From IMG/VR virus record IMGVR_UViG_3300047321_000222, positions 1 to 50,781 of that record: a stretch of 50,781 nt of DNA; one strand, given 5' to 3'. The notes below the pieces were generated by a model. That model was not told the origin of the DNA and ran no database searches. It saw only the letters and a list, made by a program, of their open reading frames with translations. The DNA comes from a virus. The position numbers and the translations under genes were made by a program. Below are positions 9,577 to 38,407 of this stretch, one piece after another. Position 1 is the stretch's first letter; each line of letters starts with the position of its first letter.

Positions 9577-9580
9577 CGAC

Positions 9581-22066: not shown

Positions 22067-22284
22067 CATTTTGATGATATTTTATGCGGGTGACTAAGGC
22101 ATCCGCTTTGCTGCTCATTCAAACATGACGCATCCGGGCGCCTAATCTCCGGCGTTCTACCGAACAGAAATCTCCACTTACCTTGACGCTAGCCTGTTCT
22201 AACATTACTGTTCGCCGCCTTAAACTCACGACGGAAATGGCGAACTCCAGCTCCGCTTTGGAGATTCACCATGTCGGAAACCAT
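22067..22284. promoter_or_regulatory. Gap with candidate promoter for the conversion cassette
   Basis: No gene seen. A plus-strand promoter TTGACG (22183-22188), 17-bp spacer, TACTGT (22206-22211) lies before the 58-aa membrane gene. AT content rises from here. Confidence 0.5.
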
Positions 22285-22461
22285 ATGAAATATATAGACA
22301 CCTTCATTAGGCTGATAGGAATCACCTCACTTGTTTTTCTTCTGAGCGGATACTCGAACTCAAAAGACTGGCAATATGTTGACTGGATGGCTATAGGCAT
22401 TTGGATTTGGCACGAATACGAAATACGGAGAAAAACAAAGTCCGACACCGATAAAAAATAG
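22285..22461 (+). CDS. Small membrane protein, 58 aa, in the acyltransferase cassette
   Basis: ATG 22285 (MKYIDTFIRLIGITSLVFLL). Two hydrophobic segments around residues 5-22 and 30-42 and a basic, charged tail. AT-rich like the acyltransferase gene 28 bp downstream, on the strand opposite to the late genes. Function unknown; it may assist the acyltransferase. Confidence 0.55.
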   Translation: MKYIDTFIRLIGITSLVFLLSGYSNSKDWQYVDWMAIGIWIWHEYEIRRKTKSDTDKK

Positions 22462-22488
22462 ATTCAATAGAAACTAACGGAGCTTCAA

Positions 22489-23670
22489 ATGCTAAATGAA
22501 TTCATGTACCCAATCATAACGTTGGCTATGTATTTATTTTCATGCCTGATAACAAAAAAAGTAGGCACAAGAATAGGTATTGAATCTGAATCGGAAAAGG
22601 GCTTCTCAAACTCTCTAGAAGTATTGCGAGGAATGGCTGCGTTCTTGGTGTTTGGTGCTCATTCATCAATGTATTTCGGTCTAGCCCCAAAGCAGGTTTT
22701 TGCTGGAACTATGGGCGAAGTTGGAGTTCTATTATTTTTCATGCTTACCGGGCATTTGTTTTGGTCGCAGGTAAGAAACAATCGTTATAGGGCTGAATCG
22801 TTTTACAAAAAAAGGATTCTCAGGCTTGTACCTGCTTACTTAGTTGTAATTTCGACCTTCATTTTTCTTGATTGGGCAAGAGCAGGATTCCCAGTGCCTA
22901 ACACCACTCAATTGATAGCCATTATTAGAAACTATGGCTTCGGATTTGGCACCGTAGTTAATAGTATCGGCAACGTAAACGACGTCTTCTCAAAAGATAT
23001 GTACCTGAAAATAAATAGCATTTGGACTTTGCGCTGGGAGTGGTTGTTTTATCTTGTGATCCCGCTTCTGGCCGTATTCAATAGATTCTATATTGCAACC
23101 TTATTCGTTTTGTTTGTATGTGTGGCCTTCTACAATCCACTGGATCTATTAAACGGAACAACGGACATCGTCTTTATACTGGCATTTTGGTTTGGGGCTC
23201 TTTCTGCTGAAATTGAGATGAAGAAGGAAACTTTATTTAAGTTTCTCAACTCAAGACTGGCAAGCAGCATGCTTCTTTTTTGGGGCATTGCAGGCTTGTT
23301 GTTGTATTTATTCCATGGAGAAATCGAGCGGAAAAATGTAAGGGTGCCTTACATGCTTTTATGCATGTTCCCAGTGTTCATGTATTTTGTATTATCGAAA
23401 GGATTTCCAGAAAGACTGACTTGGAAGCCAATGCAGATGGTTGGAAAGATAAGTTACTCATTCTATCTTTGGCACCTAGGCATCAACTCTTACGTCATGT
23501 ACATAGTTACTCAGTACTTCCATGACACGCAAAACTGGACAGCAATGATTTTGATTTGTTTTGTAATGATGTTGTTTGCAACAGTCATATCTTGTTTTAG
23601 CTACAAATTCATTGAAGAGAGATTCATGCACAGAAAGAGCAGTCCAGCGCTAGTTCCGTCTATCGCCTAG
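22489..23670 (+). CDS. Acyltransferase 3 family membrane protein (OafA/YrhL-like)
   Basis: 393 aa with about ten membrane segments. The family signature R-x10-H is Arg47 to His58 (LRGMAAFLVFGAHSS), followed by SFYKKRILRLVPAYLVV. Such enzymes move acetyl groups across the inner membrane onto O-antigen or other surface glycans and are common lysogenic conversion genes (serotype change blocks superinfection). Base composition is distinctly AT-rich compared with the rest of the genome, and it has its own candidate promoter and terminator, so it is a recently acquired moron. Confidence 0.9.
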   Translation: MLNEFMYPIITLAMYLFSCLITKKVGTRIGIESESEKGFSNSLEVLRGMAAFLVFGAHSSMYFGLAPKQVFAGTMGEVGVLLFFMLTGHLFWSQVRNNRYRAESFYKKRILRLVPAYLVVISTFIFLDWARAGFPVPNTTQLIAIIRNYGFGFGTVVNSIGNVNDVFSKDMYLKINSIWTLRWEWLFYLVIPLLAVFNRFYIATLFVLFVCVAFYNPLDLLNGTTDIVFILAFWFGALSAEIEMKKETLFKFLNSRLASSMLLFWGIAGLLLYLFHGEIERKNVRVPYMLLCMFPVFMYFVLSKGFPERLTWKPMQMVGKISYSFYLWHLGINSYVMYIVTQYFHDTQNWTAMILICFVMMLFATVISCFSYKFIEERFMHRKSSPALVPSIA

Positions 23671-23775
23671 GTAATTTATTACTGCTAATCGAAGGCGCTG
23701 GCCGGACTGTACCGGACCAGCCATTCAACGCGAAAGCTGGCCGAGCGATACGGGATCAGCGGAGGAAATGAGGAG

Positions 23776-23799
23776 GGCCGGCATTGCGCCGGCCTTTTT
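23776..23799 (+). terminator. Intrinsic terminator of the acyltransferase cassette
   Basis: Stem GGCCGGC / GCCGGCC, five-base loop ATTGC, then T5 on the plus strand. It lies just before the 3' end of the tailspike gene. Confidence 0.8.
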
Positions 23800-23812
23800 G
23801 TTGGTGGCGGAT

Positions 23813-25861
23813 TTAACCCATGGCCGTCTGCCAATCCAGCGTGACCGGCGTGCTGACCAGCCCGGCGCCCGTCACTGTGTTGTACACCCTGACGGTAATC
23901 GTGTTGAGTGCGGAAGCCGTCATGACCAAGGCGAGCGAGGCCGCTGACCTGTTCTGCATTTTGGCAATGGTTGGCGCCACGCGCCCGTTATGCGGAATGA
24001 CGATATCTCCCGATGCGTTGGTGCTTCCGGAAAAATGTCCAGATCCCACCTCGGCAGCGATCTTGCCAACACCGGCATAGATCGGGTTTACCCCGCCAAG
24101 ATCGAAAATCTTTCGCCCGGTCACTTCAATCAAGGAGTTGACATCGCCGCAAATGATGGCGGCTACAGCAGAGCCACCTTTCCCCCAGTCGGCGATTTTC
24201 GGGTTGTGGATGCTCATGCGGACGTAAGGCCCTGCCACGTTTACCGCCTCGGCAGTCGCCAAGCTGGCCGATAGGTTGACGATATCGATGTCGCAGGAAT
24301 CCGGGACAACAAAAACCGGCTTCGCTCCCGTATCAACAACGGCCGGGTCCATCTGAATACTGAGGTTTACAATTGTGGCTGTATGCCCTCGCGCAGAAGC
24401 ATCCACAAAATAACCATATGCGCAGTTGTCCAAGAACATATTGGTCACTTTCGTTTTGAACGTAGTCCCGTTCGTGACATCCCCGGATACCTGCCAGCCA
24501 ATGCGGTGGAAGATGCTGAAATAGTTCTCGATGAACAAGCCGTCAGCGCGCCAGGTGTTGAGCCCGATGGTGTTCAGTTTGTGATAGGCCCAAACGGTCG
24601 CGTGGAACGACCAGTAAGGCCACCAGTTGACGTTGAGCAGGCGCGGGCAGTCATAGGTCAGCTTGAGCAGAATGCCGGTCATGATCGGCTGCCCATACAG
24701 CTTGTCGATCCACACACGACCTTGCTGGCCGTTGGTGACGTACAGGCCCTTGTACGGGTTGAGCATGCACACATTGAATATCTTTAAGTCAGCGCAATCG
24801 GAGGCATAGACATCGTAGTCGTAGACGGTAGGAACGAATGTTCCAGCGGTTACGTTATGCGACCTGAGCGTGCCGATATCGCGCAGCTCGACTCCCTGGA
24901 AGCCTGCCGCCACGCGCTGAATGTTGAAGCCTCGACCTGGATGGTTGAAATGGAACCAAGATCCAGCGCCCCGAACGTTCTGGAAGGTGCCGATTGACAG
25001 CTGGGTCTCAACGCTATGGCCAAACATGGCGACCGACATGGTGATATCGATGGGCGCAGTGGTCTGGTACGAGAAGCCAGATGGCACCGCTGGAACGATA
25101 AGCTTGCGAACTCCTGCGTTTACAGCGCTTTGGATGGCGACCGTATCGTCAGCGCCTATTGCTCCATTCCAAGTGCCGCGAGCGCCGAACTGTTTGATGC
25201 TGACACCGTCGATGTACACCAGTTTCCAGCGGCCGCCATCAGCAGCCACGATAATTGTCCCGCCATTGTCCACAGAAGTTGTGTCGGAGACGTCTAGGCG
25301 GTACTTACTATCCCCGCCGCCATCACCGGGAGAATAATAGCCGACAGTCAAGGCGTACTTGGATGCGGACGCTTTAGAGAGCGCTCTTAGGTCTGCAATG
25401 GTCCCCACAACCTGTAGTGCTCGGCCGATTTTTGCAGAACCTTTCGTAGCATCAGCCGTTTCTGCTATTTCTTGCCGCAGCGCAGCGTCACCAATCGAAA
25501 AGAACTTAGCCGAGTCGGCTGCCCAGGTAGTTGTAGTAAAGGGAAGGCTGGCGTCCTTTGCTCTGTACAGCTCGCCGCTGAAGCGGACGGTCTGTGTTGG
25601 GCGTGTAATCCCAAGTCCGGCCACATAGTCGATCGGAACCTCGTAGCCGCTAGACTCAAGAAATTCATTGAATTCGACGACTCGCTCAGCCTGACCGGCA
25701 TCAAATTCATAACCAATTCCCGCCAGCGACCTGCGCTGGCTGCCAAATCGGTCAGGGTAGGACGCATCCGGACCATTGGCGAACTTGTCGAGGTTCTGCG
25801 CGTTATCCTTCAGGTCGCGAACGTCGCTCGACCCCAGCGCGTTGCCGGTGTTGTAGGTCAT
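23813..25861 (-). CDS. Tailspike / tail fibre protein with beta-helix
   Basis: 682 aa, ATG 25861. The first 170 residues look like a virion-attachment head. SIKQFGARGTWNGAIGADD near 222-240 followed by TVAIQSAVNAG is the usual entry to a pectate-lyase-like right-handed beta-helix. The last 80 residues form a separate beta-rich tip (GHFSGSTNASGDIVIPHNG). It should bind and perhaps degrade a surface polysaccharide. Last structural gene before the reversed acyltransferase cassette, which may alter the same glycan. Confidence 0.8.
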   Translation of the reverse strand: MTYNTGNALGSSDVRDLKDNAQNLDKFANGPDASYPDRFGSQRRSLAGIGYEFDAGQAERVVEFNEFLESSGYEVPIDYVAGLGITRPTQTVRFSGELYRAKDASLPFTTTTWAADSAKFFSIGDAALRQEIAETADATKGSAKIGRALQVVGTIADLRALSKASASKYALTVGYYSPGDGGGDSKYRLDVSDTTSVDNGGTIIVAADGGRWKLVYIDGVSIKQFGARGTWNGAIGADDTVAIQSAVNAGVRKLIVPAVPSGFSYQTTAPIDITMSVAMFGHSVETQLSIGTFQNVRGAGSWFHFNHPGRGFNIQRVAAGFQGVELRDIGTLRSHNVTAGTFVPTVYDYDVYASDCADLKIFNVCMLNPYKGLYVTNGQQGRVWIDKLYGQPIMTGILLKLTYDCPRLLNVNWWPYWSFHATVWAYHKLNTIGLNTWRADGLFIENYFSIFHRIGWQVSGDVTNGTTFKTKVTNMFLDNCAYGYFVDASARGHTATIVNLSIQMDPAVVDTGAKPVFVVPDSCDIDIVNLSASLATAEAVNVAGPYVRMSIHNPKIADWGKGGSAVAAIICGDVNSLIEVTGRKIFDLGGVNPIYAGVGKIAAEVGSGHFSGSTNASGDIVIPHNGRVAPTIAKMQNRSAASLALVMTASALNTITVRVYNTVTGAGLVSTPVTLDWQTAMG

Positions 25862-25878
25862 TGGTAATCCTCGGGCAC

Positions 25879-25902
25879 AAAAAAACCCGCTCAGTGGCGG
25901 GC
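25879..25902 (-). terminator. Terminator-like hairpin between tail tip and tailspike genes
   Basis: CCCGC / GCGGG stem with loop TCAGTG and a T7 run on the minus strand. Confidence 0.65.
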
Positions 25903-25924
25903 TTATAAATGGGGTTTGGTTCGC

Positions 25925-28588
25925 TTATGGGGCGGTGGTGCTGTCGTATGCATAGACCCGAGGGTCGTAGTTGATTGCGCTCACTCGCGCTCCGACTGAG
26001 CCTCTTGGCGACACGTCGGTGACCAGAGCGGCATACGGCATGCCGAATATCATGTGCGGCGGCTCCAAGGTCAGGCTGGTGTCGGGCGTGAAGTCCAGCC
26101 CCGGAACGGTCATGCGGTAGTCGTCGATCCGGCTGGCCGGGTATGGGCCTGATAGCGTCCCGTCCTGACGACGCAGCGAGACTAGATAAGGCCCAGCGCC
26201 CGACCAATCGAATGGTTCGGACGAAACCAGCAGGACCGAGCCGCCCATGGGCGCCCAGCTTTGCAGGATCGAACTTTGCGGGTAGCCGGGCACATCATCA
26301 GCCAGGCCGATATACGACATATAGCCGCTGTTCAGGCCTGACAGCTCGGTATTGACTACAAAGCTCTTGCGCCGGTACTTGTCAGCGCTGCGCTGCCGCA
26401 TACCGATCTGATAAGCCTTGTCCTTGTTGATAACCCCCTCAAGGCTGATTTTCTCGACGCGCAGTCCGGCATCGCCAGGCAGTCGGCACTGGACCGTCTC
26501 CTTCTGCCAGGTGCGCTCACTCAGATATTCCACGTCTACCCCGTCGAAGTCGTCGATGGTCGGTGCAGACCACGGCCGCTCAATGGTGGTTGTCGCATTC
26601 TGCGTCGAGTACATGTGCTGGAAGACTGTTCGCGGCTCATCACGCACCGGCCTGATCTTGCCGCGCTCAAGGGTCAGCTCGGCGAAGCCAGCCCGCAGCG
26701 CGTCATTGAGGCAGGCCTTGATGGTGCTGGCACTGGTCACGCCCATATCAAAGCGGTCACCACGCGCCGACCATATCGCATGCAGCCGCGACAGCTCGGC
26801 CATGTCGATATCGGACTCGGTGTAGCCGACGGACTTGGCCACGTAGAGGAACCATGGCGCAATGTCGCGAGTGGCGCCGGTCGTGCCGTCTAACTTCGGC
26901 AGGATGCGGGTCGCCTCACAAGAGATCAGGTTTTCAGACTCGGATGAGATACGATCGCCACCGCGAACATACACAGCCATGACCGTGACGCCCGCGTAAC
27001 TGGTCGGCGACGGCAGCAGGGCGCGCAGCCCGTACCACATGCTTTTATCGTTTACTTCTGAAGAATTCTCGCCGCCGACCTTTGGCTCTCGCCTAACCCT
27101 GCACTCCGGGCGCATCGGATACGGCAGATTTTCGCGGAACGTGAAGCCTTGGGCGTCCAATGTCGAGCCTTTGACGGTCTTTGATAGCGCGGTCCACGCA
27201 CCACCAATAGCCATGTCTCGATACTCGAAAACGTGCGTCGACGGAACTTCATAAATAAACCCTGTTCTTCCAAGGCCGCAAAGGCCGCCCGAGAAAAACA
27301 CGTCCCACTCAATGGCCGTTGCCAGCTCCCCATCTGGGCACGCCGCAAATGCGCCTCGATATCCGCCAGCAAGGTTTGACGAGTCAAGCCCTACATAGCC
27401 TTGCCCTGTCTGACTAAATGTCCAACCTGGCCACCCTGCATCGGTCACGCTACCGGATGACTTTAAGCGATCAACCTGGAGGATCGACGAACTGGCCGAA
27501 ACGATGCGATAGCGCAGACCGACTGGCCCAATCGTAGAAATGGTCGGGCCGACCTTTAGGCCGGTTGCTGCTGCTCCACCTGCGTAGTTCAGGGTCATAT
27601 CCATAGATGTGACCGTATTGACGGTATAAAGCCCGGCGTTGTCGCCGGCAATTTCTATGCTGTCACCGGCCACCAAACCAAGCTGGGCGATGTCGCCGCT
27701 AATCACATCACGCCCACCAGGGCCACCACCATCCGTTACGGTGTAGCTGTACGGAGAGATAACACGAAGCAACAAGCCAGCAGACCAGTCTGCCGGGAAC
27801 GATCCGGCTCCGGAAGGGATAGTGATAGTTTTTCCGTTGAACTGGTACACGCTGGCAGTAGCCGCCCCGGTCATGGATGAACCGACCGTCAGCTCAAGGC
27901 CTGCCGTACCATTCGAACTGGCGCCGACCTCTTTGGCTGGATACCAAAATTGCGACGCCGACTCTGCGCCGATGTTGGCGCCGGGGCCGTAGATAGCAAA
28001 TGTCGCGTCAGTGCCCAGCGATACCAGGGGGGTTTCACCTACCTTTACCTTATTGAGCGGGATATCGAACTCACCGACGCCAACGCACAGCAGCAGCTCA
28101 ACCCACTGCTCCCGAGGGCCGCGAAAGTAGCGGCGGGGCTGCATGATACTGTCAGGGTAGATCCGGCCAAAGCCGGCGCGCTCAGGGACAACCGCATTGA
28201 GCTTGATCTTGTTGCCTTTGCTCGACGCCTCGTCAAGCGGATCTCCTTGCTTTCCGGCTGACGAGCTCGGCACCCCAGGAGGCTTCGGCATGAGCGCCTT
28301 GAACACGGACTTTACTGCGCCAATGAGTACGTTTATGGCGGTGATATTGCCAATAACCCCCTTCGGCTCAATGAACAGGCGAACGCTGTCGTCCGGGCCA
28401 AAGGTCGCGGTAGCCCAGTCGGCAGGCGGCACCAATACGCCGTTGATCTCGGCGCTGATCGGCGGCACTTCGCGCAGCTCGTAGCCTTTCACGTTCACCG
28501 TCAGCCAGGCGCTAATCGTCTGGGTTTCGTGGGTTTCGTGGGTTTCAAGCGGGAGGCCTTCAAGGCGACTCGGAAATAGCTCTATCAC
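25925..28588 (-). CDS. Tail tip / host specificity protein (TipJ-type)
   Basis: 887 aa from GTG 28588, overlapping the preceding peptidase gene by 29 bases. N-terminal region with VFKALMPKPPGVPSSSAGKQ near 92-111 and a long insertion with Gly-rich beta segments; GERGKIRPVRDEPR-like core near 635-650. This is the pattern of TipJ/gpJ-like central tail proteins. Near the N-terminus is an unusual ETHETHETQ from a 9-bp tandem repeat. It forms the baseplate hub that the tailspike joins. Confidence 0.8.
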   Translation of the reverse strand: MIELFPSRLEGLPLETHETHETQTISAWLTVNVKGYELREVPPISAEINGVLVPPADWATATFGPDDSVRLFIEPKGVIGNITAINVLIGAVKSVFKALMPKPPGVPSSSAGKQGDPLDEASSKGNKIKLNAVVPERAGFGRIYPDSIMQPRRYFRGPREQWVELLLCVGVGEFDIPLNKVKVGETPLVSLGTDATFAIYGPGANIGAESASQFWYPAKEVGASSNGTAGLELTVGSSMTGAATASVYQFNGKTITIPSGAGSFPADWSAGLLLRVISPYSYTVTDGGGPGGRDVISGDIAQLGLVAGDSIEIAGDNAGLYTVNTVTSMDMTLNYAGGAAATGLKVGPTISTIGPVGLRYRIVSASSSILQVDRLKSSGSVTDAGWPGWTFSQTGQGYVGLDSSNLAGGYRGAFAACPDGELATAIEWDVFFSGGLCGLGRTGFIYEVPSTHVFEYRDMAIGGAWTALSKTVKGSTLDAQGFTFRENLPYPMRPECRVRREPKVGGENSSEVNDKSMWYGLRALLPSPTSYAGVTVMAVYVRGGDRISSESENLISCEATRILPKLDGTTGATRDIAPWFLYVAKSVGYTESDIDMAELSRLHAIWSARGDRFDMGVTSASTIKACLNDALRAGFAELTLERGKIRPVRDEPRTVFQHMYSTQNATTTIERPWSAPTIDDFDGVDVEYLSERTWQKETVQCRLPGDAGLRVEKISLEGVINKDKAYQIGMRQRSADKYRRKSFVVNTELSGLNSGYMSYIGLADDVPGYPQSSILQSWAPMGGSVLLVSSEPFDWSGAGPYLVSLRRQDGTLSGPYPASRIDDYRMTVPGLDFTPDTSLTLEPPHMIFGMPYAALVTDVSPRGSVGARVSAINYDPRVYAYDSTTAP
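28521..28547. repeat. 9-bp tandem repeat in the tail tip gene
   Basis: GTGGGTTTC repeats three times in frame and encodes ETHETHET. A short slippage-prone minisatellite close to the N-terminus. Confidence 0.75.
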
Positions 28589-28970
28589 GGTAATATCGCA
28601 CCTTCAAGTAAGCCCGCTCGAACTCGGGAATGGTCAGCCGGCGTACGCCGGTTTGAGGATTGATCTCAAGCGCATTGAGGCAGCCCTCAACCTCGATGAT
28701 GACGGCGACATGGGTACACAGGGCGCCATGCAGCACGGCGGCAATGGCGCCGACCTCGGGCGCGCACGCCTCCATGGTCGAAGCCTCGGCGACATAAGCG
28801 CGAGTGAAGGCCTTGGGGTCGGTATTGCGCAGGTCGCCGAATGACGGCAGCAGGCGCTTGCCCAGGTGTTCATGCCGGACATGCCGAGCCAACCCCCAGC
28901 AATCGAACTCATGCGGGCCGCGCGCACCGTCCTTGTAGCGAACCATCAGGTAGTGATTGAGCCAAGTCAT
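28560..28970 (-). CDS. NlpC/P60-type tail-associated peptidase
   Basis: 136 aa from ATG 28970. FDCWGLARHVRHEHLG near residues 22-37 holds the catalytic Cys, and CTHVAVIIE near 84-92 the catalytic His. This is the standard lambda gpK-like C-terminal domain found upstream of the J-like gene; it cuts peptidoglycan stems during entry or assists tail assembly. Confidence 0.8.
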   Translation of the reverse strand: MTWLNHYLMVRYKDGARGPHEFDCWGLARHVRHEHLGKRLLPSFGDLRNTDPKAFTRAYVAEASTMEACAPEVGAIAAVLHGALCTHVAVIIEVEGCLNALEINPQTGVRRLTIPEFERAYLKVRYYRDRAISESP

Positions 28971-29455
28971 GTGTAGGTCAGCCCCCTGAATTCGTCGGGC
29001 GTGTACAGCCGGCGCGGCCATTTCACGTTGATGATCTCGCCGAACCCGGCCTCGACCTGAAGCATTGGCCCCTGCATGGTTCCGCCCGTAATGCGCATGC
29101 GATAGGGCGGTTCGGCGGGAGCCGTCAGGTTCGACTGCGCGTAAATCCGGTGCGTGATGAAGCATTGCGCTCCAGCGTCAATCGCTTGATCAATTAGCCG
29201 CTGGCCCACCCCTTGGATGTCGCCGATTGCGAACTTGAGGGTCTGCGAGCCCGCGTTTGATTTCTTCGGTAGGGCGATCTCGATGTTCGAGGCGGTGAAC
29301 GCAAGGATTCGCCCGTCTTCAGTCTGACAGACCTTGTCCTCGAAGCCGGTACACACCAGGATCGGCGCCGCCCAGGCTGAGCACGACAACTCAAGCGTGC
29401 TCAGCGGGACAGGGCCGCCCGAGGCGTAAATGATGTCAAGCACTGTGCTGGTCAT
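28967..29455 (-). CDS. Minor tail protein, DUF1833-like, 162 aa
   Basis: ATG 29455 (MTSTVLDIIYASGGPVPLST). The pattern LSCSAWAAPILVCTGFEDKV and a beta-rich middle with RMRITGGTMQG, just before the NlpC/P60 gene, fits the DUF1833 minor tail protein position. Overlaps neighbours by four bases at each end. Confidence 0.7.
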   Translation of the reverse strand: MTSTVLDIIYASGGPVPLSTLELSCSAWAAPILVCTGFEDKVCQTEDGRILAFTASNIEIALPKKSNAGSQTLKFAIGDIQGVGQRLIDQAIDAGAQCFITHRIYAQSNLTAPAEPPYRMRITGGTMQGPMLQVEAGFGEIINVKWPRRLYTPDEFRGLTYT

Positions 29456-29904
29456 GCTTCGGGCCACTCCTTGTTGACCGCCCGGTCGAAAATGTCCGAT
29501 AGCAAGATATAGCCGGGCATCAGCTCGACCCAGTCAGGCGGCAGCAATGGGTTTTCGCGGATCTCGACCTTGGCGGTGTAGGTCCACTTGTCCATGGCGA
29601 AACGCTTCGGCCCCTTGATGCCGTCCTTGGTGAAACGGATCACCAGATCGTCGTAGCCCAGCGGCGTGCGTAGCTTCATGGTGAACCAGTCGGCCCGAGC
29701 CATCCGGGCCGCCCAGTAGGCGAAAAACTGCGACTCCTGATCGGAGAACAGCCAGGTCAGCTCGATAAAGGTCGGTACGACCTCGAACGTCTGACGCTGG
29801 AAGCTGCGACCGCTGGCCATGTCGGTCGACATGATGTTGCTGACCGGGTCGAACTCGTAATCCCTGCGCGTCGGGAGCGGCAGTTCCTTGGGAAAGGCAA
29901 TCAT
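29452..29904 (-). CDS. Minor tail protein, 150 aa
   Basis: ATG 29904. Tryptophan/phenylalanine-rich (TFIELTWLFSDQESQFFAYW; ADWFTMKLRTPLGYDDLVIR). Between tape measure and DUF1833-like genes, the place of a distal tail protein in this phage group. Confidence 0.65.
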   Translation of the reverse strand: MIAFPKELPLPTRRDYEFDPVSNIMSTDMASGRSFQRQTFEVVPTFIELTWLFSDQESQFFAYWAARMARADWFTMKLRTPLGYDDLVIRFTKDGIKGPKRFAMDKWTYTAKVEIRENPLLPPDWVELMPGYILLSDIFDRAVNKEWPEA

Positions 29905-32801
29905 CGACCCACCTTCTGCATTCCGTAGTTGCTGGAGAGCGCATCGTGGACTTCCTCGTCGTTTCGGATCGAGGCGACCACTACGTCGACGATTTGCTGC
30001 TGATTTTCCATGCGAGTGCTAACCGTGCCGGCCTTCTTGCTCTTGTCCTCGAACAGATTCACGACGACTCCGCCGCCGTTGGTGCTGGTGTTCGAGTCAT
30101 TGGAAGCAGCGCCAGGGCCTGAGCCGGTGTAGGTGCCGGCCGGGCTTGGCACCTCCATTTTCCCGGCGCGCATAGCGTCGAGATTGTCCTTGCCGATACG
30201 CGCAGTCGAAGCCGCGTCGAACACGTACTCTTTACCGTGTACCGCTCCCACCACTTCATCGGTGCCGCCGTCTCCGGTGTAACCGCCCTTCTTGAATCCC
30301 TTAGTCATGGCCATAATGGCGAGCAGTGCCGCGCCACCGACCACTGCGGCAGCGCCGAAGGTGCCGATCGATGCGACCAGGGCCGCAGGCAGCCAAGCCG
30401 CCAGCGTTGTGCCTGCTGCCGCTGTCTGTACGGCGGTTGTTGTTGCGGTGGATGCGACAGACGCCGCCGTCACTGCAGTGATGCGACCCAGTTCGGCGCC
30501 CGTCTTGACGCCCTCTGCTGCCACCTTGGTACCGGTCACCGCGGTGATGCCGGCCATTTCCAGCGCCGCGTTGACGCCGTACCGGATACCGACCTGAATC
30601 AGCGAGCTGAGCACTTCGGTCAGCACCGTGCGCCCGAGCGCCTTCATGGACTCGGTCAGGTCGTCGCCCATGACGATGGACTGGGCGAAGCTGTCGGCAA
30701 TCCCCCGGGTGAGGGTTTCCATTGTTCCGCCAATGATGTCGTAGGTCTGGCTCGCGACATCCTGCGCCTGGGTCATGTAGTCCTGGATCGCGGCAGTCGC
30801 GCCGTTCTTCCAGTCGCCCTGCATGGCCGAGAGCTTGTCGTAGTAGTCCTGATTCGCGGCAAGGGCCAGGTTCAACTGATCCTGAATCTTGCTCACTTCG
30901 ACGGTGTAGGCCGTCCCGCCCAGCTGGTCAGCCGGTGTCGCCTTGTTCAGCTGGTCCTGATAGCGAGTGAACTCCTTGCGGGTAGCCGCGTCTTCTGCGG
31001 CGCGCTGGGAGGCCTGCTTGCCCAAGCCAGCCGTCGAAAGCTGCGTGGTGCGCTGATCGTTTTTGCTTTGGGCGTCCGAGGTGATCGACGCCTGGATCTG
31101 CGCCGACCGCTCTTGCAGCTTGATCGTCTCAGTGTGAAGCCGCACTTCCTCGGCCACCGCGACGTTCTTATCCAGCTGCGCCTTGATGCCGGACTCATTG
31201 GCCAGCAGGCTTTTCTGATCCGCCGTCAGGACCGATCTCGTCTTGAGGTCGGCTATCTGCTGGGTGATCTCGGCGCGCTTGCGCTCGGCGTCGGTCAGCT
31301 TGTCGTCGCTTTTCAGTTGAGCCGACAGCGAGCTTTCTTGGCCGCGCAGGGTCAGCAGCAGGTTTTCAGCGGCGTCATTGCGGAAGGCAGGGGGCTTGGC
31401 GACCGCTGGGTCTTTGTACTTGTCGTTGATATTGGCGATGTTCTTGTCGACCGCCGCCTGATTCAGTCGGGAGTCGTCAGGATTGGCTGCCCGGATCTTC
31501 TCCAGGTCAACCCGGTACTTCTTGATTTCATCGCCGCGCTTCTGCTCGTTGGTCAGCGTCGACTGGGTCAGCGCATCGATCCGCTCAGAGGCGGAAATAG
31601 CCGCGCTCTGCGTCTTCTGGCGATCACCGATGTACTTGGCAAGCGCCTGCTCGGCCTCGATCTGCATTTCGAGATAGCCGATTTCTTTCTTGGTCGACTC
31701 GTAGCGAAACGGGTCTTCCTTGGCGGCATCACGACCGCCAGCAGTCAGATCAGCCATGCGCTTTTTGGCGGCATCCAGCTGCTCGCCTAGGGTGTCCTGC
31801 CTGCCTACGTCAAGGGTTGCATCCAGCGCACCCATTGCAGCCGTCTTGATACCGCGCCAGGCGCGCTCGACCAGGCCAAGGTTATTGGTCATTTCGGCTG
31901 TGCGATTCTGAATGGCGTTGGCGTAGGCCTCAGTCAGTAGTCGCGATGCTTCGGTAGTGTTCCCGCTTTCCTTTGCAGCAACGATCTGCGAATAGATCGA
32001 CTGAGTCAGGAAGTTGTATTGGTCGTTCAGATCCTTTGCGGCCGCGACAGGGTCTTTGCCGATCTTGACGAACTCGGCGACGGTTTCCTCGGCGGCGCGG
32101 CCGGTGGCTTCCTTCATTTGAAGCGCGGCGGTGGTGATCGTCTCGAAGCTGTCCGATGCAATCTTGCCGCTGCCGGCGAGCTGAGCCAGGATGTCAGCGG
32201 CGGCGCCAGTGGTTCCGACGGTGTCGCCCGCCTTCTGCGCCATGTAGCCGAGCGAGTCAGCCGTAGTTCCAGCCACCTTGCCCGATAGGATCAATGCATT
32301 GTTATACGCGTCCGCCTCTTGGCTGCCTTTGCTGTAGGCGACGGCCAAGGCGACAGCTGCTGCGCCCGCCAGGGTGAACGGATTCACCAGACCAGCGACA
32401 TAGCCGCCCAGCGCCCGAGCAGCAGGCCCTACGCCGCCGAACATGTCTTTGAGCTGGCCACCTTGCTGCAGGAGAACCTGAAGCGGGGCTTGGCCGCCTT
32501 GCAGCGATACAGCAATGTCAGTGAACTGGGCCGGTACGCCGCGCAATGCAGCAGCGGTCGCCTTGGCGGACATCCCAAGCTGGTCTGTCTGCTTCGTCAG
32601 CTTCGACGTTGACTGCTCGGCGACCTTGGCTCCTGCGCCCAGCCCCTTGACCGCTTGCTCAGACTTTTCGGTCTGAGTGGTCAGGGCGGCCGTGGACTTC
32701 TCAGCCTTGGCGCCGGACTGGGCCAGCTTGTCCAGGTCGTTTGCGGCCTGAGCAGCTTCGGTCGAATTTACGCGTATGCCCAGTTCGGCAATTGAGGTCA
32801 T
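29901..32801 (-). CDS. Tape measure protein
   Basis: 966 aa, ATG 32801. N-terminal coiled coil (NSTEAAQAANDLDKLAQSGA), a prophage tape-measure core with VPAQFTDIAVSLQGGQAPLQ near 85-104 and a following LVNPFTLAGAAAVALAVAYS membrane-like segment, long coiled coils in 270-690, and a Gly/Ala hydrophobic segment near 790-830. Length predicts a tail of roughly 145 nm using the usual 0.15 nm per residue rule, which is inference. Confidence 0.9.
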   Translation of the reverse strand: MTSIAELGIRVNSTEAAQAANDLDKLAQSGAKAEKSTAALTTQTEKSEQAVKGLGAGAKVAEQSTSKLTKQTDQLGMSAKATAAALRGVPAQFTDIAVSLQGGQAPLQVLLQQGGQLKDMFGGVGPAARALGGYVAGLVNPFTLAGAAAVALAVAYSKGSQEADAYNNALILSGKVAGTTADSLGYMAQKAGDTVGTTGAAADILAQLAGSGKIASDSFETITTAALQMKEATGRAAEETVAEFVKIGKDPVAAAKDLNDQYNFLTQSIYSQIVAAKESGNTTEASRLLTEAYANAIQNRTAEMTNNLGLVERAWRGIKTAAMGALDATLDVGRQDTLGEQLDAAKKRMADLTAGGRDAAKEDPFRYESTKKEIGYLEMQIEAEQALAKYIGDRQKTQSAAISASERIDALTQSTLTNEQKRGDEIKKYRVDLEKIRAANPDDSRLNQAAVDKNIANINDKYKDPAVAKPPAFRNDAAENLLLTLRGQESSLSAQLKSDDKLTDAERKRAEITQQIADLKTRSVLTADQKSLLANESGIKAQLDKNVAVAEEVRLHTETIKLQERSAQIQASITSDAQSKNDQRTTQLSTAGLGKQASQRAAEDAATRKEFTRYQDQLNKATPADQLGGTAYTVEVSKIQDQLNLALAANQDYYDKLSAMQGDWKNGATAAIQDYMTQAQDVASQTYDIIGGTMETLTRGIADSFAQSIVMGDDLTESMKALGRTVLTEVLSSLIQVGIRYGVNAALEMAGITAVTGTKVAAEGVKTGAELGRITAVTAASVASTATTTAVQTAAAGTTLAAWLPAALVASIGTFGAAAVVGGAALLAIMAMTKGFKKGGYTGDGGTDEVVGAVHGKEYVFDAASTARIGKDNLDAMRAGKMEVPSPAGTYTGSGPGAASNDSNTSTNGGGVVVNLFEDKSKKAGTVSTRMENQQQIVDVVVASIRNDEEVHDALSSNYGMQKVGR

Positions 32802-32818
32802 GACGTTTCTCCGGGCAT

Positions 32819-32844
32819 AAAAAAGCCCCGCACTTGGCGAGGCT
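32819..32844 (-). terminator. Terminator-like hairpin before the tape measure's downstream neighbour boundary
   Basis: AGCCCCGC / GCGAGGCT (one mismatch) with T6 on the minus strand, in the gap between the lipoprotein gene and the tape measure gene. Confidence 0.55.
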
Positions 32845-32878
32845 ATGTTGAATCTGCTGTCTTGCTATTCGGTGCGAC

Positions 32879-33289
32879 TCACTTGGCGGTCACCTCGTAA
32901 TGCGCAGCCTTCTCAAACCGGCCGCCCACGACATTCAGGTTCGTAGTGAACAGGTTCACAGCGTCATACGGCAGGTAACCGCAGCCGCCGCACACGAACT
33001 CAGCCTCGAAGGCGGTTCGCCCATTGGCTTGCGGTACGCGCTTAACGTAGGCGCTCATGCGGTTTGGACCGATGCGCTCGAACGTCTGCGCGTAGGTATC
33101 GGTCGCCACTTGCAGACGCATGCCGCTGATCTGCTGGACTTGCACCAGGGCCTCGGACCACATCGCATCACATTGCGCCTTGATGGAGCAGGTAGCGATA
33201 GGCAGAATCTCAGGCGGCGGCCCGGATGGCTTCATCGCGCAGCCGCTGAGGGTCGCGATGATTAACAGTGAGGCGATTCGTGCGCGCAT
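32879..33289 (-). CDS. Lipoprotein, 136 aa
   Basis: ATG 33289 (MRARIASLLIIATLSGCAMK). A short basic n-region, hydrophobic core and lipobox LSGC give a signal peptidase II site, so the protein should be anchored in a membrane of the host. It is inserted between the tail chaperone GT and tape measure genes, where phage-encoded exclusion or conversion proteins are sometimes found. Two CxxC-like cysteines (FVCGGCGYL) near 110-118. Function unknown. Confidence 0.75.
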   Translation of the reverse strand: MRARIASLLIIATLSGCAMKPSGPPPEILPIATCSIKAQCDAMWSEALVQVQQISGMRLQVATDTYAQTFERIGPNRMSAYVKRVPQANGRTAFEAEFVCGGCGYLPYDAVNLFTTNLNVVGGRFEKAAHYEVTAK

Positions 33290-33328
33290 GGTGTCGTCCT
33301 TGGATAGTCCATTAGCCGACATGATAGC

Positions 33329-33954
33329 TCACTTCACCTCACGCATCTGACTGAGCGCCTCGCCTTCCATCAGGCGAACCCAGTCGAACACCTCGGCCCG
33401 GTCAGCCTTTGGCACGCCGCGCAGGCGCATCACGTCGGGAAGTACACCGTAATCGAGGCCAGTCGCCCCGGCCATGCCCGTTCGCCACTGGGTGCCCATC
33501 GCCATAAAGACATCCAGCGGCGCCCAGTTGTCAGGCCAAACTTCGAATTCGTCGCTGTCCATATCCTCGGGCGCGAAGCCGAACGCGGCCAGCTCGCTCT
33601 TGGCGGGTGCTTTGGCGTACAGCCTATGGGCAGCGTCGATCAGTTTTTTCGGCGGGCCTGGACGATCTCATCAGTGTATGCCGAGGTAATGACGTGACCG
33701 GCGCCGGCGTAGTTCTGGCACAGCAGGTCGAAGCTCTCATCCTCGCACTTGTCGTCCAGATCCCAGCCGACAACACAGCCCGCCAACACCTCGGCGTCTG
33801 TCTTGCCCTGAATTTCCTTGATCCACTCGTCCAGCGCGGTGCGGGTGCGGTGCTTGAACTCAATCACTACGACGGCAGCTTCACCGCCATGGATTGGCAG
33901 CTCGACGGCCTTCTTGAACGTCGGCGCTGCCTTGAGGCTGAATTTAACGGCCAT
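33329..33954 (-). CDS. Tail assembly chaperone GT, made by -1 frameshift
   Basis: The G frame (33954-33640) reaches the heptamer A AAA AAC (minus strand, 33649-33643) directly before its TGA. A -1 slip continues as LIDAAHRLYAKAPAKSELAA and on into EFEVWPDNWAPLDVFMAMGT with GLDYG near the end, which is the DUF1799 pattern of lambda T-like extensions. The downstream frame has no good start of its own in the part that continues from the slip. G and GT coat the tape measure during tail assembly. Confidence 0.85.
33640..33954 (-). CDS. Tail assembly chaperone G (unshifted product)
   Basis: 104 aa from ATG 33954 (MAVKFSLKAAPTFKKAVELP) behind GGAG; a start four codons upstream has no better signal. 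Ends RRKN at the frameshift site. Short beta-rich protein in the position of lambda G, upstream of tape measure. Confidence 0.8.
   Translation of the reverse strand: MAVKFSLKAAPTFKKAVELPIHGGEAAVVVIEFKHRTRTALDEWIKEIQGKTDAEVLAGCVVGWDLDDKCEDESFDLLCQNYAGAGHVITSAYTDEIVQARRKN
33643..33649 (-). promoter_or_regulatory. Programmed -1 frameshift site A AAA AAC
   Basis: Classical X XXY YYZ slippery heptamer in the reading frame CGA AAA AAC TGA; the stop immediately follows, which favours slipping. Confidence 0.85.
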
Positions 33955-33964
33955 GTAATGCTCC

Positions 33965-33992
33965 AAAAAGCAGGCCCGCGATTAGGCGGGCC
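33965..33992 (-). terminator. Terminator-like hairpin after the tail tube gene
   Basis: Perfect stem GGCCCGC / GCGGGCC, loop of six; only a short, displaced T run on the minus strand, so weak. Confidence 0.45.
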
Positions 33993-33998
33993 AAAGGG

Positions 33999-34700
33999 TT
34001 AGGCCGAGTAACGAGTCGGCTCGGAGGTAAGCGAGACGGTGGCTTTAAGGCCCATGATCTCGTTCTTGGTCAGCGTCGGCGTCTTGTTCAGCGTCACATA
34101 GCCGTTGTAGAGAATGCTCGACATGCTCGGCAGGGTGATGCGAACAGCGCGAGGCACGCGGTCATCGTTGGCAGCAGACAGCAGCGCGTACCACGGCAGC
34201 GATGCGTCGTCGCCGATGGTCATGGCGAAGCTGGATGCCGACTTAACGGTCGGGATCTGGTGCTCTACGTCTTCTTCCAGGAAGGAGTAGGTCACGAACT
34301 GCTGCTCGCCGCCCGAGGTGGCGAACTCCAGAACCTGAGTGATCTGAACCCAAGTCAGGATCTTGCGAGCCTGGCCAGCGCCACCGCCGACCGGGTACAG
34401 GTTGACGTTACTGGTGTCCACGCCTTCGAGGACGTAGGCGTCGGTCGTCGCAGACTTCACGCGCACGATGCGGGAGTTCAGGCGGGACCAGCCGGAAGTG
34501 ACCTCCAGAATGTCGCCAGCGACGAAGCCGTGAGCGGTCGAGCTGCAGGAAGCCTCGGCGGCATTGCTGATGGCGGTTACGGTTTTTGGTGCTGCGTAGG
34601 TGTTGGCGGCGGCAACGACCGCGCCATTTGGCAGACTAACGCTGATAGTAGTTCCTTTGCGGCCGCATGGGCCGACACTGAATTGCGCCCGTTCGGGCAA
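33999..34700 (-). CDS. Major tail (tube) protein
   Basis: 233 aa. The only start available in frame is TTG 34700, immediately after a terminator, so the N-terminus is uncertain. Beta-rich with ISNAAEASCSSTAHGFVAGD (Ig-like or decoration segment) and a C-terminus LTKNEIMGLKATVSLTSEPT typical of lambda V / HK97 type tube proteins. Position between tail terminator and chaperone G supports the call. Confidence 0.75.
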   Translation of the reverse strand: MPERAQFSVGPCGRKGTTISVSLPNGAVVAAANTYAAPKTVTAISNAAEASCSSTAHGFVAGDILEVTSGWSRLNSRIVRVKSATTDAYVLEGVDTSNVNLYPVGGGAGQARKILTWVQITQVLEFATSGGEQQFVTYSFLEEDVEHQIPTVKSASSFAMTIGDDASLPWYALLSAANDDRVPRAVRITLPSMSSILYNGYVTLNKTPTLTKNEIMGLKATVSLTSEPTRYSA

Positions 34701-34701
34701 T

Positions 34702-34725
34702 AAAAAACCCGCTCAATGGCGGGTT
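34702..34725 (-). terminator. Terminator before the tail tube gene
   Basis: AACCCGC / GCGGGTT stem with loop TCAATG and T6 on the minus strand, a near copy of the hairpin before the endolysin gene. Confidence 0.65.
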
Positions 34726-34747
34726 CGGGTGTTGCTCTGCGGGTTGA

Positions 34748-35164
34748 TCAGTTCGTATCGGCGCGATATTGAAAGGATGCCGAGACCGTCCAGGTGTCGC
34801 CATCTGGAACGCCTGGCCCGGGATCTACCGGGCTCAGCGTCATTACCGTGAAGCCGGTCTTCGTGTAGCGGGCATTCAGCGGGAACAGGGCGGCCAGTTC
34901 GTCGACGATGCCCTCGGCCTTGCCGGTGCCGCTGCCGGACGGCGTCACGACATTGATCTGAAACACGCCGGTATAGGCCTTGTGGTCACCGCCCAGCGTC
35001 TCGCTATCGGTGCCGGCTGGCAGCGTGAAGGCCGCCAAGTAGGTTTCGGCAGGCGCCGGAGTGAATGGCACGCCTTGATAGGCGATGCGCAGCACTGGCA
35101 ACCTGGCGACAGCCCAAGCGGCAAGGCGGGCCTCGTAAATCTGTCTGATCGTGCGATGGCTCAT
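34748..35164 (-). CDS. Tail terminator protein (DUF4128-type)
   Basis: 138 aa, ATG 35164. RTIRQIYEARLAAWA at the start, GVFQINVVTPSGSGTGKAEG near 66-85 and a final SASFQYRADTN match the DUF4128/lambda gpU-like tail terminators that end tube growth. Overlaps the gp10-like gene by four bases. Confidence 0.8.
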   Translation of the reverse strand: MSHRTIRQIYEARLAAWAVARLPVLRIAYQGVPFTPAPAETYLAAFTLPAGTDSETLGGDHKAYTGVFQINVVTPSGSGTGKAEGIVDELAALFPLNARYTKTGFTVMTLSPVDPGPGVPDGDTWTVSASFQYRADTN

Positions 35165-35835
35165 ATCTGGTTGTTCCTGACTGCCTCGTTGACGATCTGC
35201 TGGAAGCGGGCGAGCGTTACGCGGACCATGCCTTGGGGCGATTGCGTCGAGTGGCCATACTCCAACGGGATCGCGTAGGGCAGGTTGTTGACGATGTAGG
35301 CCGTCTGCCCCGCTGTCAGTGTTGCCACCTCGGCCCGAAGCGCTGCCAGTGTGGCGGCGCCAGTCGGGTCGATCCGATCAAGCTCGCCGACGGCCGGAAC
35401 GCCGATGGTGAACTGCCAGTTACCACGGAAGCGCCCGCCGACGTAGCCCTTGCCGGTGACCAGGCCATTAACATCGAAGTTCTGGATGCGCTCGGTCTTG
35501 GTCAGCGGCTTGGCGTACTTGACGCTTTTCTTCAGGTTGCCCGACTTGGTGAAGTTGCTCGGTGTCAGTGACTTGACGACGTTGCGCACCTCGACATGGG
35601 AGTCGTAAGCGTCCGCGCTGGCCGAGGCCTTCGACCTGTAGTTGACGTTTGCTGCCCACAGCTCGGGATTGCCCACCGGTGACATCTGAATAACGCTGCT
35701 GCCGATCTCGATCACGATCTCTCGCAGGCTGGCATCGATTGCGCCCTGCGCCTGTTCAGCAAACTGCTGCAACTGATGGGCAAAGTCGCCACTCAGTCCG
35801 CCGTATCGAGCCTTCATCGCATCGCCGCGAGCCAT
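35161..35835 (-). CDS. Neck / tail completion protein (HK97 gp10-like), 224 aa
   Basis: ATG 35835, overlapping its neighbour by one base. LQQFAEQAQGAIDASLREIV near 22-41 is an amphipathic helix of gp10-type proteins; the C-terminal YAIPLEYGHSTQSPQGMVRV with the YGHS motif is highly typical. It joins head and tail. Confidence 0.75.
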   Translation of the reverse strand: MARGDAMKARYGGLSGDFAHQLQQFAEQAQGAIDASLREIVIEIGSSVIQMSPVGNPELWAANVNYRSKASASADAYDSHVEVRNVVKSLTPSNFTKSGNLKKSVKYAKPLTKTERIQNFDVNGLVTGKGYVGGRFRGNWQFTIGVPAVGELDRIDPTGAATLAALRAEVATLTAGQTAYIVNNLPYAIPLEYGHSTQSPQGMVRVTLARFQQIVNEAVRNNQI

Positions 35836-36206
35836 TACGAACGCACCTGCAGTTCATACAGCAACGGCGTGCCGGCCGGGTTGATCTCTTTCAGAGGCGG
35901 GACGATCGACCACGTCTTGCCGTCGGCGATGACCTTGCTCAGCAGTGACGGCGCCGAGGTCAGGCCCTTGGCGGCAAGCTTCAGCTTCTTGTCGCCCTGC
36001 TTGATCAGGCTATTGGCTTGGAAGTCCAGACCGGTGTACTCAGCAAGAATGCCCTGGCCGATCTGGTCAGTTACCGTCTCAGCCGATGTTTCGCCCGTAT
36101 CCGGATCGTACCCGCCAGGCGTTACGGTGCGCAGGGTGACCGGTAAGCCGAACTCGGTTATCAGATCCAGCGCAACCCCCGCCATTTCGTCGTAGAACGC
36201 GCTCAT
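35835..36206 (-). CDS. Head closure / neck protein, 123 aa
   Basis: ATG 36206. DLITEFGLPVTLRTVTPGGY near 14-33 is the usual opening of small head-tail stopper proteins. Three-base gap to the DnaT-like gene. Confidence 0.7.
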   Translation of the reverse strand: MSAFYDEMAGVALDLITEFGLPVTLRTVTPGGYDPDTGETSAETVTDQIGQGILAEYTGLDFQANSLIKQGDKKLKLAAKGLTSAPSLLSKVIADGKTWSIVPPLKEINPAGTPLLYELQVRS

Positions 36207-36208
36207 GC

Positions 36209-36697
36209 TCAGGCCCTGATAGCGAACAGGCCTTTACGGGCAATGTACGCGGTGAATTGGGTGCTGCTTACACTGGCCGACACGGCAGGGGCCTTGCGGC
36301 TCGATGCTGCGTATTGCACATCGACCGCGCCCTCGACTCGGTTACGAATCACGGCGCCTTTGCGCTTGTCGACCGGGTCGATGTCGTCAGTGTGGATCTC
36401 GGCGGCAAGCGCCATCTGCCCGGACTTGATCCGGACAGGAATGGAATCGGACGGCTGGATTCGCTCGTCAATGGTTACGTCTTGGCGCGGCCACGACAGG
36501 GCTTGATCGCCGCTGGTGCGCTCGCCTTTCCAGGTGTAGGCGTCCATGGCCACGGCTGCGCGGCGCAATAGAGCTTCCTGAGCCAGCGGGTCGACAGGGA
36601 TGGTCGCGCCGTAGTTCGCGGCGTAGATGACCAGCTCGGCGGCCGTTGCGAAGCTGTCGGCGTCCGGCTTGCCGGTACCATCTTCAATAATCAGCAT
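36209..36697 (-). CDS. Head-tail connector (DnaT-like domain), 162 aa
   Basis: ATG 36697. Opens MLIIEDGTGKPDADSFATAA and continues with ATIPVDPLAQEALLRRAAVA then WPRQDV. This is the widespread phage protein annotated as putative DnaT-like single-strand binding or head-tail adaptor; position after the capsid genes supports the adaptor role. Confidence 0.75.
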   Translation of the reverse strand: MLIIEDGTGKPDADSFATAAELVIYAANYGATIPVDPLAQEALLRRAAVAMDAYTWKGERTSGDQALSWPRQDVTIDERIQPSDSIPVRIKSGQMALAAEIHTDDIDPVDKRKGAVIRNRVEGAVDVQYAASSRKAPAVSASVSSTQFTAYIARKGLFAIRA

Positions 36698-36720
36698 GGT
36701 TGCCTCTGTTTAAATGTCGG

Positions 36721-38121
36721 TCACAGACCAAGCAGTGCGCGGTAGTCAGGGATAGCGCGATCCCCGATGTACACGTAGCCCGCTGCGTCCGGGTGCGTGA
36801 CGTCCTGGGTTGAGAATCCAGCCCAGCCAATCGGATCAATCCAAATCAGCCGAGGGTCGTTTTTGGCGACCATTACCGACTTGAGGATCGCGTTTGCGGC
36901 ATTAACCAGCGACTGCGCATCTGCTTTTGGCAGGACGCCCCTGCACATGACCGTACTGTACTTAGCCAGCAACTTGTCTATGCACAGGCCGTAATCGGCT
37001 TGCTTTGTTGCATCGATCTCGTTCTCGGCATCGTTGCCGCCCAGCGCCAGGATCGCGACGTCGCCAGGGTTGACGGTGCGCAGCGCTAACGCCGCGTCGA
37101 TCATCGCCTTGCCGCCTCCAATGGTCTGCCCACTGATGCCGGTAGTGCTGCCAACGCCACCAAGAGCAGCAGCGACACGCATAGTCTCCGTATCAACCGA
37201 AGTCGCGCCGGGCCCTGAGCCAAAGGTGCCCGAGTCGCCGTATTGGTCCAGGTGCCAGCGGGCGCCAATATCCAGGAACGCAGAATCTGTCGCAACGCAA
37301 AACGCGCCGCCAGTATCCTTGTAGTTGCCGTCGTCCCACACGTTATAGGTCGATGTCGATCCGTCGCACGGAATGACCAGTACGCGAGGCGGGTTTCCGG
37401 CCTCGTCGGCGATTGAGTAGATCGTGGCCGGCCCACCATTCTTGCTGACCCCGACCTTGCGCGAGCCGTTGAGTGTGACGACCAGCCGGCTAAACGCTCC
37501 CTTGATCTTGACCGAGCTTACGTTCGACCCGTAGGTCTGTCCTTTCGGCGCTACCAGCGCGGGCGTATACCCGGCCGCGTTAGGCGTGATCGCGCCGCCA
37601 TACAGGCCGAGGGCAGAGTTAGCTCCAGGCTCAATCTTATTGGACAAGGTTTGCAGCGCGGGCGGCTGACCGGTGACGGCGAGAACGTTCCCGGACGATG
37701 CGATATAGGGGGCGTCCGCCATTCCGGCAGCCCAGCGAACCTCGACGAATCTGGTTGCGTGCGGCAGCCCGGTAAACAGGGTGTAGACCGACGCGGCGTT
37801 TGGCGCGGCAACGAATGCGCCGCCATCAATTGCGACCTGTACCGACCCGGCGTTGTCGCCGTAGTCGGATGGCGCGGTTAACTTGGCCTCGCTGCCGGTG
37901 ATGAATCCAGACCACACGGTAAGCGCGCCGCGGGCATAGATGCGGGCTGCGTTCTTAGTCGTGCTGATCGATCCAGAAAGCCCGGGAGATACCTGAGCTG
38001 ACGTGAAGTTGACCGTTGTAGGAGCTGGCAGCGCCGGAGCGGCAGCCGATATGCGATGCCTATCAACAACCGACCGAACAACCGGTTGAATCGTGAAGTG
38101 AACGATCGATTGAATAAGCAT
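36721..38121 (-). CDS. SGNH/GDSL esterase encoded among virion genes
   Basis: 466 aa, ATG 38121. The C-terminal domain has block I GDS at 295-297 (DQYGDSGTFGSG), block II Gly near 331, block III GGND at 361-364, and block V DVTHPD with Asp440 and His443, giving a full Ser-His-Asp set. The first 170 residues are beta-rich, with an Ig/fibronectin-like piece. SGNH enzymes commonly remove O-acetyl groups from polysaccharide. Its place between decoration-like and connector genes suggests a virion protein. It could undo modification by the acyltransferase of 22.5 kb or of the host. Confidence 0.8.
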   Translation of the reverse strand: MLIQSIVHFTIQPVVRSVVDRHRISAAAPALPAPTTVNFTSAQVSPGLSGSISTTKNAARIYARGALTVWSGFITGSEAKLTAPSDYGDNAGSVQVAIDGGAFVAAPNAASVYTLFTGLPHATRFVEVRWAAGMADAPYIASSGNVLAVTGQPPALQTLSNKIEPGANSALGLYGGAITPNAAGYTPALVAPKGQTYGSNVSSVKIKGAFSRLVVTLNGSRKVGVSKNGGPATIYSIADEAGNPPRVLVIPCDGSTSTYNVWDDGNYKDTGGAFCVATDSAFLDIGARWHLDQYGDSGTFGSGPGATSVDTETMRVAAALGGVGSTTGISGQTIGGGKAMIDAALALRTVNPGDVAILALGGNDAENEIDATKQADYGLCIDKLLAKYSTVMCRGVLPKADAQSLVNAANAILKSVMVAKNDPRLIWIDPIGWAGFSTQDVTHPDAAGYVYIGDRAIPDYRALLGL

Positions 38122-38122
38122 T

Positions 38123-38407
38123 TTAAGCCTCTAGAAAGACACCGAATGCCGTGCCAGTGTAAGCCGGTCGCTTGACTCGGAATGTACCGGGGCCGGCCAG
38201 CACGACTTGGCGCTTTGTTCCATCCAAAGAGCCAATGGTGTTGCTCGCGCCAGGCGTCACCTGATCAATTCCGAAGACCACGCCCAATGGCACCGAATCA
38301 GCGGCTGCCGAAAAGATACCGACAGTCACGCTCGCCCCGGCCGCCACAACAATGTCAGTTGAGGTTGCAGCAGTGATGCCCGCTGCCAGCACCGTCGACT
38401 GGGTCAT
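38123..38407 (-). CDS. Probable head decoration protein, 94 aa
   Basis: ATG 38407, overlap with the 79-aa gene. Small, beta-rich, Ala/Thr/Val-rich, without charged helices, as for capsid cement or Ig-like surface proteins. Position next to the capsid gene supports the call; no sequence family recognised. Confidence 0.5.
   Translation of the reverse strand: MTQSTVLAAGITAATSTDIVVAAGASVTVGIFSAAADSVPLGVVFGIDQVTPGASNTIGSLDGTKRQVVLAGPGTFRVKRPAYTGTAFGVFLEA

Follow-up and report, generated by a model that had tools for sequence, protein, structure and literature searches.

The two surface-glycan genes of one temperate phage, an acyltransferase-3 (AT3) gene and an SGNH esterase gene carried in the head operon, probably serve as two separate tools: a head/neck-associated O-acetylesterase of the virion, and a converting acyltransferase matched to the phage's own tailspike. 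Both genes lie in IMG/VR virus record IMGVR_UViG_3300047321_000222, whose 50,781 bases (overall GC 58.4%) we analysed as a single stretch, hereafter the window. The window has genes for an integrase (17303-18469), for lambda-like replication (an initiator and a helicase loader) and for an anti-repressor, together with a full set of siphophage head and tail genes, and we therefore take it to represent a temperate siphophage; because homologues of its genes are found mostly in Pseudomonas phages and prophages, its host is probably a Pseudomonas. An earlier note on this DNA had joined the two genes as a lock and key, and our analysis bears out its description of each gene and parts from it on the partnership.

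The SGNH gene (36721-38121, minus strand) encodes a predicted SGNH/CE2-like carbohydrate esterase of 466 residues that matches Pfam Lipase_GDSL_2 (PF13472) above the cut-off (1e-9). Its hydrolase blocks are complete and bear out the Ser-His-Asp set of the earlier note, with the serine of the GDS motif in block I (S297), the glycines of block II (G328/G331), the asparagine of the GxN motif in block III (N363) and the aspartate and histidine of the DxxH motif in block V (D440 and H443). In 20 aligned SGNH sequences, with identity down to 28%, S297, N363 and H443 do not vary and D440 hardly does. A search of solved structures with the single sequence returned no match; a profile was needed to find solved SGNH esterases, with whose catalytic blocks these residues align. 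The ratio of nonsynonymous to synonymous substitution is 0.11-0.24 against five relatives, and the protein is therefore under purifying selection. Along its length, with approximate borders, the protein comprises an anchor-like segment that is mostly disordered in the AlphaFold2 model (residues 1-34; 38020-38121), a beta-sandwich that is the most conserved segment (residues 35-159; 37645-38019), a second beta domain (residues 160-284; 37270-37644) and the SGNH hydrolase domain, which the alignments show to hold the four catalytic residues (residues 285-466; 36724-37269), all on the minus strand.

That model (mean pLDDT 89; confident from residue 28, with residues 1-27 below 50) found as its top solved matches in Foldseek 2waa, 3u37, 4xvh and 2wao (E about 1e-10 to 1e-11), all of them CE2 carbohydrate acetylesterases, at an identity of 11-18%. 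The alignments run over 319-395 columns and follow the CE2 architecture, an N-terminal jelly-roll and a C-terminal SGNH fold, and the modelled fold is that of polysaccharide O-acetylesterases. We call the protein CE2-like rather than CE2 because the Pfam family CE2_N (PF17996) gave no match in it at E 0.01; in a distant relative, ctUhy936, CE2_N gave a weak, sub-threshold match. The second-ranked match of the model in BFVD (8e-16) was the neck passage structure (NPS) protein of lactococcal phage ASCC191, and PHROG 7918 matches the C-terminus of the SGNH protein only. Inspection of the translation revealed no obvious signal peptide at the N-terminus.

The placement of the gene among head and connector genes also stands. 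The gene order is portal, MuF-like, scaffold, major capsid protein (MCP), p79, p94, SGNH, Ad1, Hc1, Ne1 and tail terminator, so that the slot is bordered upstream by the Gp13-like MCP (38693-39661, minus strand) and downstream by the head-tail adaptor Ad1 (phrog_477; 36209-36697, minus strand). Within it, p79 (38404-38643, minus strand), a short form of a gene that relatives conserve behind the MCP, shares the bases ATGA with p94, and p94 (38123-38407, minus strand), a 94-residue all-beta protein, stops a single base short of the SGNH start. This stop-start coupling leads us to expect that p94 and the SGNH protein are produced alongside the head proteins. Homology to the nearest capsid relative (L009) ends at 38484 and picks up again at 36694, which delimits a p94 and SGNH insert at 36695-38483 on the minus strand where L009 has 430 bases. 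Searches of the PDB with p94, by sequence and by fold, gave no significant match; in Providencia phage PSTNGR1 the neighbour of p94 is a GDSL-like gene, and in KLEP17-4 it is a gene with a weaker, SASA-like similarity. Promoter signals near p94-SGNH and near the AT3 gene did not rise above chance. Separately, we observed that the gene after the MCP (L009-L088) encodes 80-216 residues with a conserved N-terminus, IWYLPGPFHRYEDDVKA and variants, and that its long forms have a charged C-terminal extension.

The p94 and SGNH pair is an accessory insert. Among the 80 nearest MCP loci in IMG/VR, 76 reach far enough to judge whether the cassette is present; one has it (L087, on the same contig as L001) and 75 lack it, and in the other relatives with a recognisable Ad1 the slot holds only a p79-like gene of 80-196 residues or, rarely, other short open reading frames (ORFs). 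Further carriers (L002, L003, L093, L112, L114 and L115), some truncated by the contig end, emerged when the SGNH and p94 proteins served as queries, and on the MCP tree the cassette requires at least three gains or losses, between which the tree cannot separate. The earlier note's remark that an SGNH gene in the head module is not standard thus stands for this phage group, where it is rare, and fails as a general statement, since ctUhy936 and P. moorei-type prophages use a similar slot and CE2-like domains have been published in lactococcal neck proteins. SGNH homologues 72-77% identical occur in the genomes of P. moorei and of Pseudomonas sp. 14P_8.1_Bac3, where a scan of genome contigs with the single SGNH sequence gave no relatives and a profile scan gave three loci; the homologue in the prophage of P. 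moorei CCUG 53114 (L123) is 77% identical. Elsewhere, identity over the SGNH core is 58% in phiK7A1, 47% in Lebethron, 31% in Nitrincola phage 1M3-16 and 29% in ctUhy936.

How the N-terminus varies among these homologues would fit a role in attachment. Residues 1-34 are 68-85% identical within phages that carry the gene in the MCP-Ad1 slot (L001, L093 and L114) and 6-26% identical in all others, among them L092, whose SGNH core is 74-84% identical and whose head genes are of another type. Residues 35-160 are 57-88% identical in the closer homologues, in the same slot and in other slots alike. Phages of 81-90 kb (L095, L096, L098 and L101) carry the p94 and SGNH pair upstream of their terminase and portal genes, at about position 5600-7400, and the N-terminal 30 residues of their SGNH proteins differ from those of the window; p94 and the SGNH gene thus stay together in two phage types that are not related. 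The N-terminus appears to follow the phage type while the rest is held in common, as would be expected of a virion anchor. Together with the head-operon coupling, the lack of an obvious signal peptide and the likeness to a neck protein, this pattern suggests that the SGNH protein is very probably a late virion protein.

The AT3 gene (22489-23670, plus strand) is intact and, as the earlier note had said, AT-rich (39.6% GC against 58.4% for the window). It encodes a stand-alone O-acyltransferase of 393 residues that matches Pfam Acyl_transf_3 at 9e-32 (110.8 bits on PF01757, whose curated cut-off is 31) and the PHROG O-acetyltransferase at 3e-43, shows by inspection the motifs R-x10-H (R47/H58) and RxxR (KKRILRLVPAY), and has no fused SGNH domain. 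From its sequence, it is plausibly an O-antigen acetylase moron of the ordinary lysogenic conversion type. A search for it in 400 Pseudomonas genomes gave no match at E<=1e-30 and was uninformative, so that no absence is implied. As a separate observation, capsid relatives (L129-L136) carry unrelated AT3 genes, some of about 640-660 residues and possibly AT3-SGNH fusions; in several SGNH-free capsid relatives, other AT3 types adjoin an endolysin-like ORF.

The AT3 gene is convergent with the tailspike gene (23813-25861, minus strand), which encodes 682 residues with an N-terminus typical of Pseudomonas tail fibres, and residues 234-637 of which match a PHROG annotated as pectin lyase activity. 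The closest viral AT3 homologue (80%) lies in G055, a 34-kb temperate phage record, and the homology extends over a transferable block at 22276-25249 (73-75% nucleotide identity) that comprises a small ORF, the AT3 gene and tailspike residues 193-682. The small ORF (22285-22461, plus strand; 58 residues from its ATG, apparently membrane-spanning by inspection) is directly upstream of the AT3 gene and conserved with it in G055. There, too, the AT3 and spike genes converge, next to an integrase-like ORF, and the spike has a T7-like N-terminus; nothing beyond the block is shared with the window across the 20 kb examined, and the SGNH gene is absent from the record. Conversely, the close relative G017 shares with the window the integrase region (92% nucleotide identity) and the p94 and SGNH cassette (SGNH 62%), while its AT3 is only 23% identical and its spike matches at the N-terminus only. 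The window thus has an AT3-only gene in a temperate phage, convergent with a spike and co-transferred with the enzymatic domain of that spike, and in this link between AT3 and spike it resembles conversion genes of the Sf6 type. In Sf6, acetylation of the O-antigen by the AT3-only Oac impedes the endorhamnosidase of the phage itself and confers immunity to superinfection (PMC9558356). By this analogy and from the pattern of transfer, the AT3 appears better paired with the tailspike than with the head-region esterase.

The lock and key of the earlier note, in which the virion SGNH protein strips off on entry the same acetyl group as the AT3 of that phage attaches after lysogeny, now seems improbable. 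Both genes are indeed intact in one genome, phage deacetylase spikes that require acetylated O-antigen are known (G7C gp63.1; PMC10743462), and in G012, a distant relative, the gene of an SGNH homologue (32-34% identical) directly converges with a neighbouring AT3 gene near an integrase-like ORF (L107; 5923-7353, plus strand, and 7461-8636, minus strand), so that an esterase-acetyltransferase pair may exist elsewhere. Across records, however, the two genes are not associated: AT3 was found in 3 of 22 SGNH-bearing records and in 7 of 35 SGNH-free capsid relatives (Fisher p=0.73), in a small sample of records that are partly fragments and include one record present in two collections. The AT3 gene travels with the tailspike in a phage that has no SGNH gene, G017 retains its SGNH gene alongside a different AT3, and a virion deacetylase matched to the modification of its own lysogen would tend to defeat the exclusion of sibling phage by the AT3. 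A related idea, to which we give slightly more weight while still thinking it unlikely, is that p94 and SGNH form a portable two-gene deacetylase module, put on the virions of different phages by interchangeable short N-terminal anchors (at the head/neck in one type, at another structural site in the 81-90 kb phages), that could strip acetyl groups added by the acetyltransferases of resident prophages and so counter serotype conversion rather than partner its own AT3. Far less probable than either, we judge, is a split AT3-SGNH acetyltransferase in which the SGNH protein works outside the cytoplasm as the half that the stand-alone AT3 lacks. In AT3-SGNH fusions, transfer depends on the SGNH domain, an AT3-only protein can pass acetyl to a separate SGNH protein (PMC9558356), and the longest AT3 ORFs of relatives would accommodate such a fusion; but the SGNH gene lies on the opposite strand in a late head operon, whereas a converting gene acts in the lysogen, its product begins without an obvious signal peptide, most SGNH-bearing records have no detected AT3, and Sf6 Oac functions as an AT3-only protein.

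Several points weigh against the reading that we prefer, a head/neck esterase and a tailspike-matched AT3. The tailspike-AT3 block rests on one second genome, G055, and genes that lie side by side can move together without being coupled in function; no Pfam family matches the tailspike. In the literature the NPS domain figures as a binding module rather than a proven enzyme (PMC6669499), and the BppU-like collar domain and trimeric coiled coil of lactococcal NPS proteins are both absent from the window SGNH protein. In PhiPsa374, a phage related to phiK7A1, an SGNH protein (gp053) was detected in virions by mass spectrometry (PMC9796965); phiK7A1 (L005) carries two distinct SGNH genes among its structural genes (5858-7228 and 8944-10311), of which only 064 was recovered with the window SGNH, and we therefore set gp053 aside as direct evidence of a virion location. 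SGNH-core relatives also occur at tail-fibre or lysis-proximal loci, and the window protein could therefore be tail-associated.

The strongest competitor is that the protein binds a receptor as part of a tail fibre or the baseplate and has its gene in the head operon only by chance, which we regard as possible, though doubtful. Homologues at other structural or lysis-proximal loci in Lebethron, Nitrincola 1M3-16 and phiK7A1-like phages speak for it, as do the SGNH tail fibres common in Klebsiella prophages, two of which were shown to be active esterases (PMC13123978); yet in this phage type and in ctUhy936 the gene is flanked by capsid genes on one side and connector genes on the other, a distinct tailspike gene follows the tail genes, and in the capsid relatives the slot contains head-operon genes only. 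The SGNH protein might instead be catalytically silent and bind glycan only, as proposed for lactococcal NPS domains. Hayes et al., 2019 called the related NPS domain a binding module, binding having been shown for a different NPS group only, but the conservation of the catalytic residues down to 28% identity and the strong purifying selection make a silent protein about as improbable as the lock and key.

In the sequence of events that we infer for a head/neck esterase and a spike-matched AT3, the SGNH protein would be expressed late, along with p94, its small partner, as part of the head operon and held by its short N-terminus to the head/neck region of the particle, where it would remove acetyl esters from surface polysaccharide and so help adsorption or passage through the glycan layer. 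After lysogeny, the AT3 would acetylate the polysaccharide recognised by the spike enzyme, such that the same spike fails on the lysogen and superinfection is excluded. A Gram-negative siphophage with a CE2-like esterase in its head/connector operon would extend the lactococcal neck-fibre case to Pseudomonas phages, with an attachment, 34 residues and p94, different from and simpler than lactococcal neck fibres; in the literature on SGNH or carbohydrate-esterase proteins on the heads of Gram-negative siphophages we found nothing specific. The tailspike-AT3 block, in turn, is a two-gene unit on which superinfection exclusion can be tested, and it gives grounds for seeking the partner of each AT3 in the neighbouring spike.

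Known systems provide counterparts for each part of this reading. The nearest to the SGNH protein are the NPS proteins of groups F and G of lactococcal 936 phages (lead phages Phi114 and ASCC191), whose C-termini were assigned to the 2waa carbohydrate esterase (Hayes et al., 2019; PMC6669499), the best structural match of the window protein as well. Both are accessory, present in some phages only; the NPS proteins are head/neck-associated, and we liken the window protein to them from its gene position. The TP901-1 collar is expressed with the capsid and is non-essential for infection (as cited in Hayes et al., 2019; PMC6669499). The window protein differs from NPS proteins in its 34 mostly disordered N-terminal residues followed by a beta-sandwich, its 94-residue partner, its Gram-negative host and its complete set of predicted catalytic residues. 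With the CE2 family (CjCE2A, 2waa; Est2A, 3u37; CtCE2, 2wao) it shares a beta-sandwich followed by an SGNH hydrolase, and it departs from that family in its extra N-terminal beta domain, its identity of only 11-18%, the unmatched CE2_N and its viral origin. G7C gp63.1, whose deacetylase activity is essential for infection of its host (PMC10743462), and the SGNH tail fibres of Klebsiella prophages, two of which were shown to be active acetyl esterases (PMC13123978), place an SGNH esterase domain in a phage particle protein that acts on an acetylated surface glycan, and the proposed deacetylation chemistry therefore has precedent; those proteins are tail spikes or fibres, whereas the window gene is in the head module. 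Finally, although the window AT3 is too distant from Sf6 Oac to be called Oac and belongs with a different host and glycan, it resembles the oac gene of the Sf6 oac and tailspike pair in being an AT3-only gene of a temperate phage that would be expected, as we propose here, to block the phage's own spike after lysogeny.

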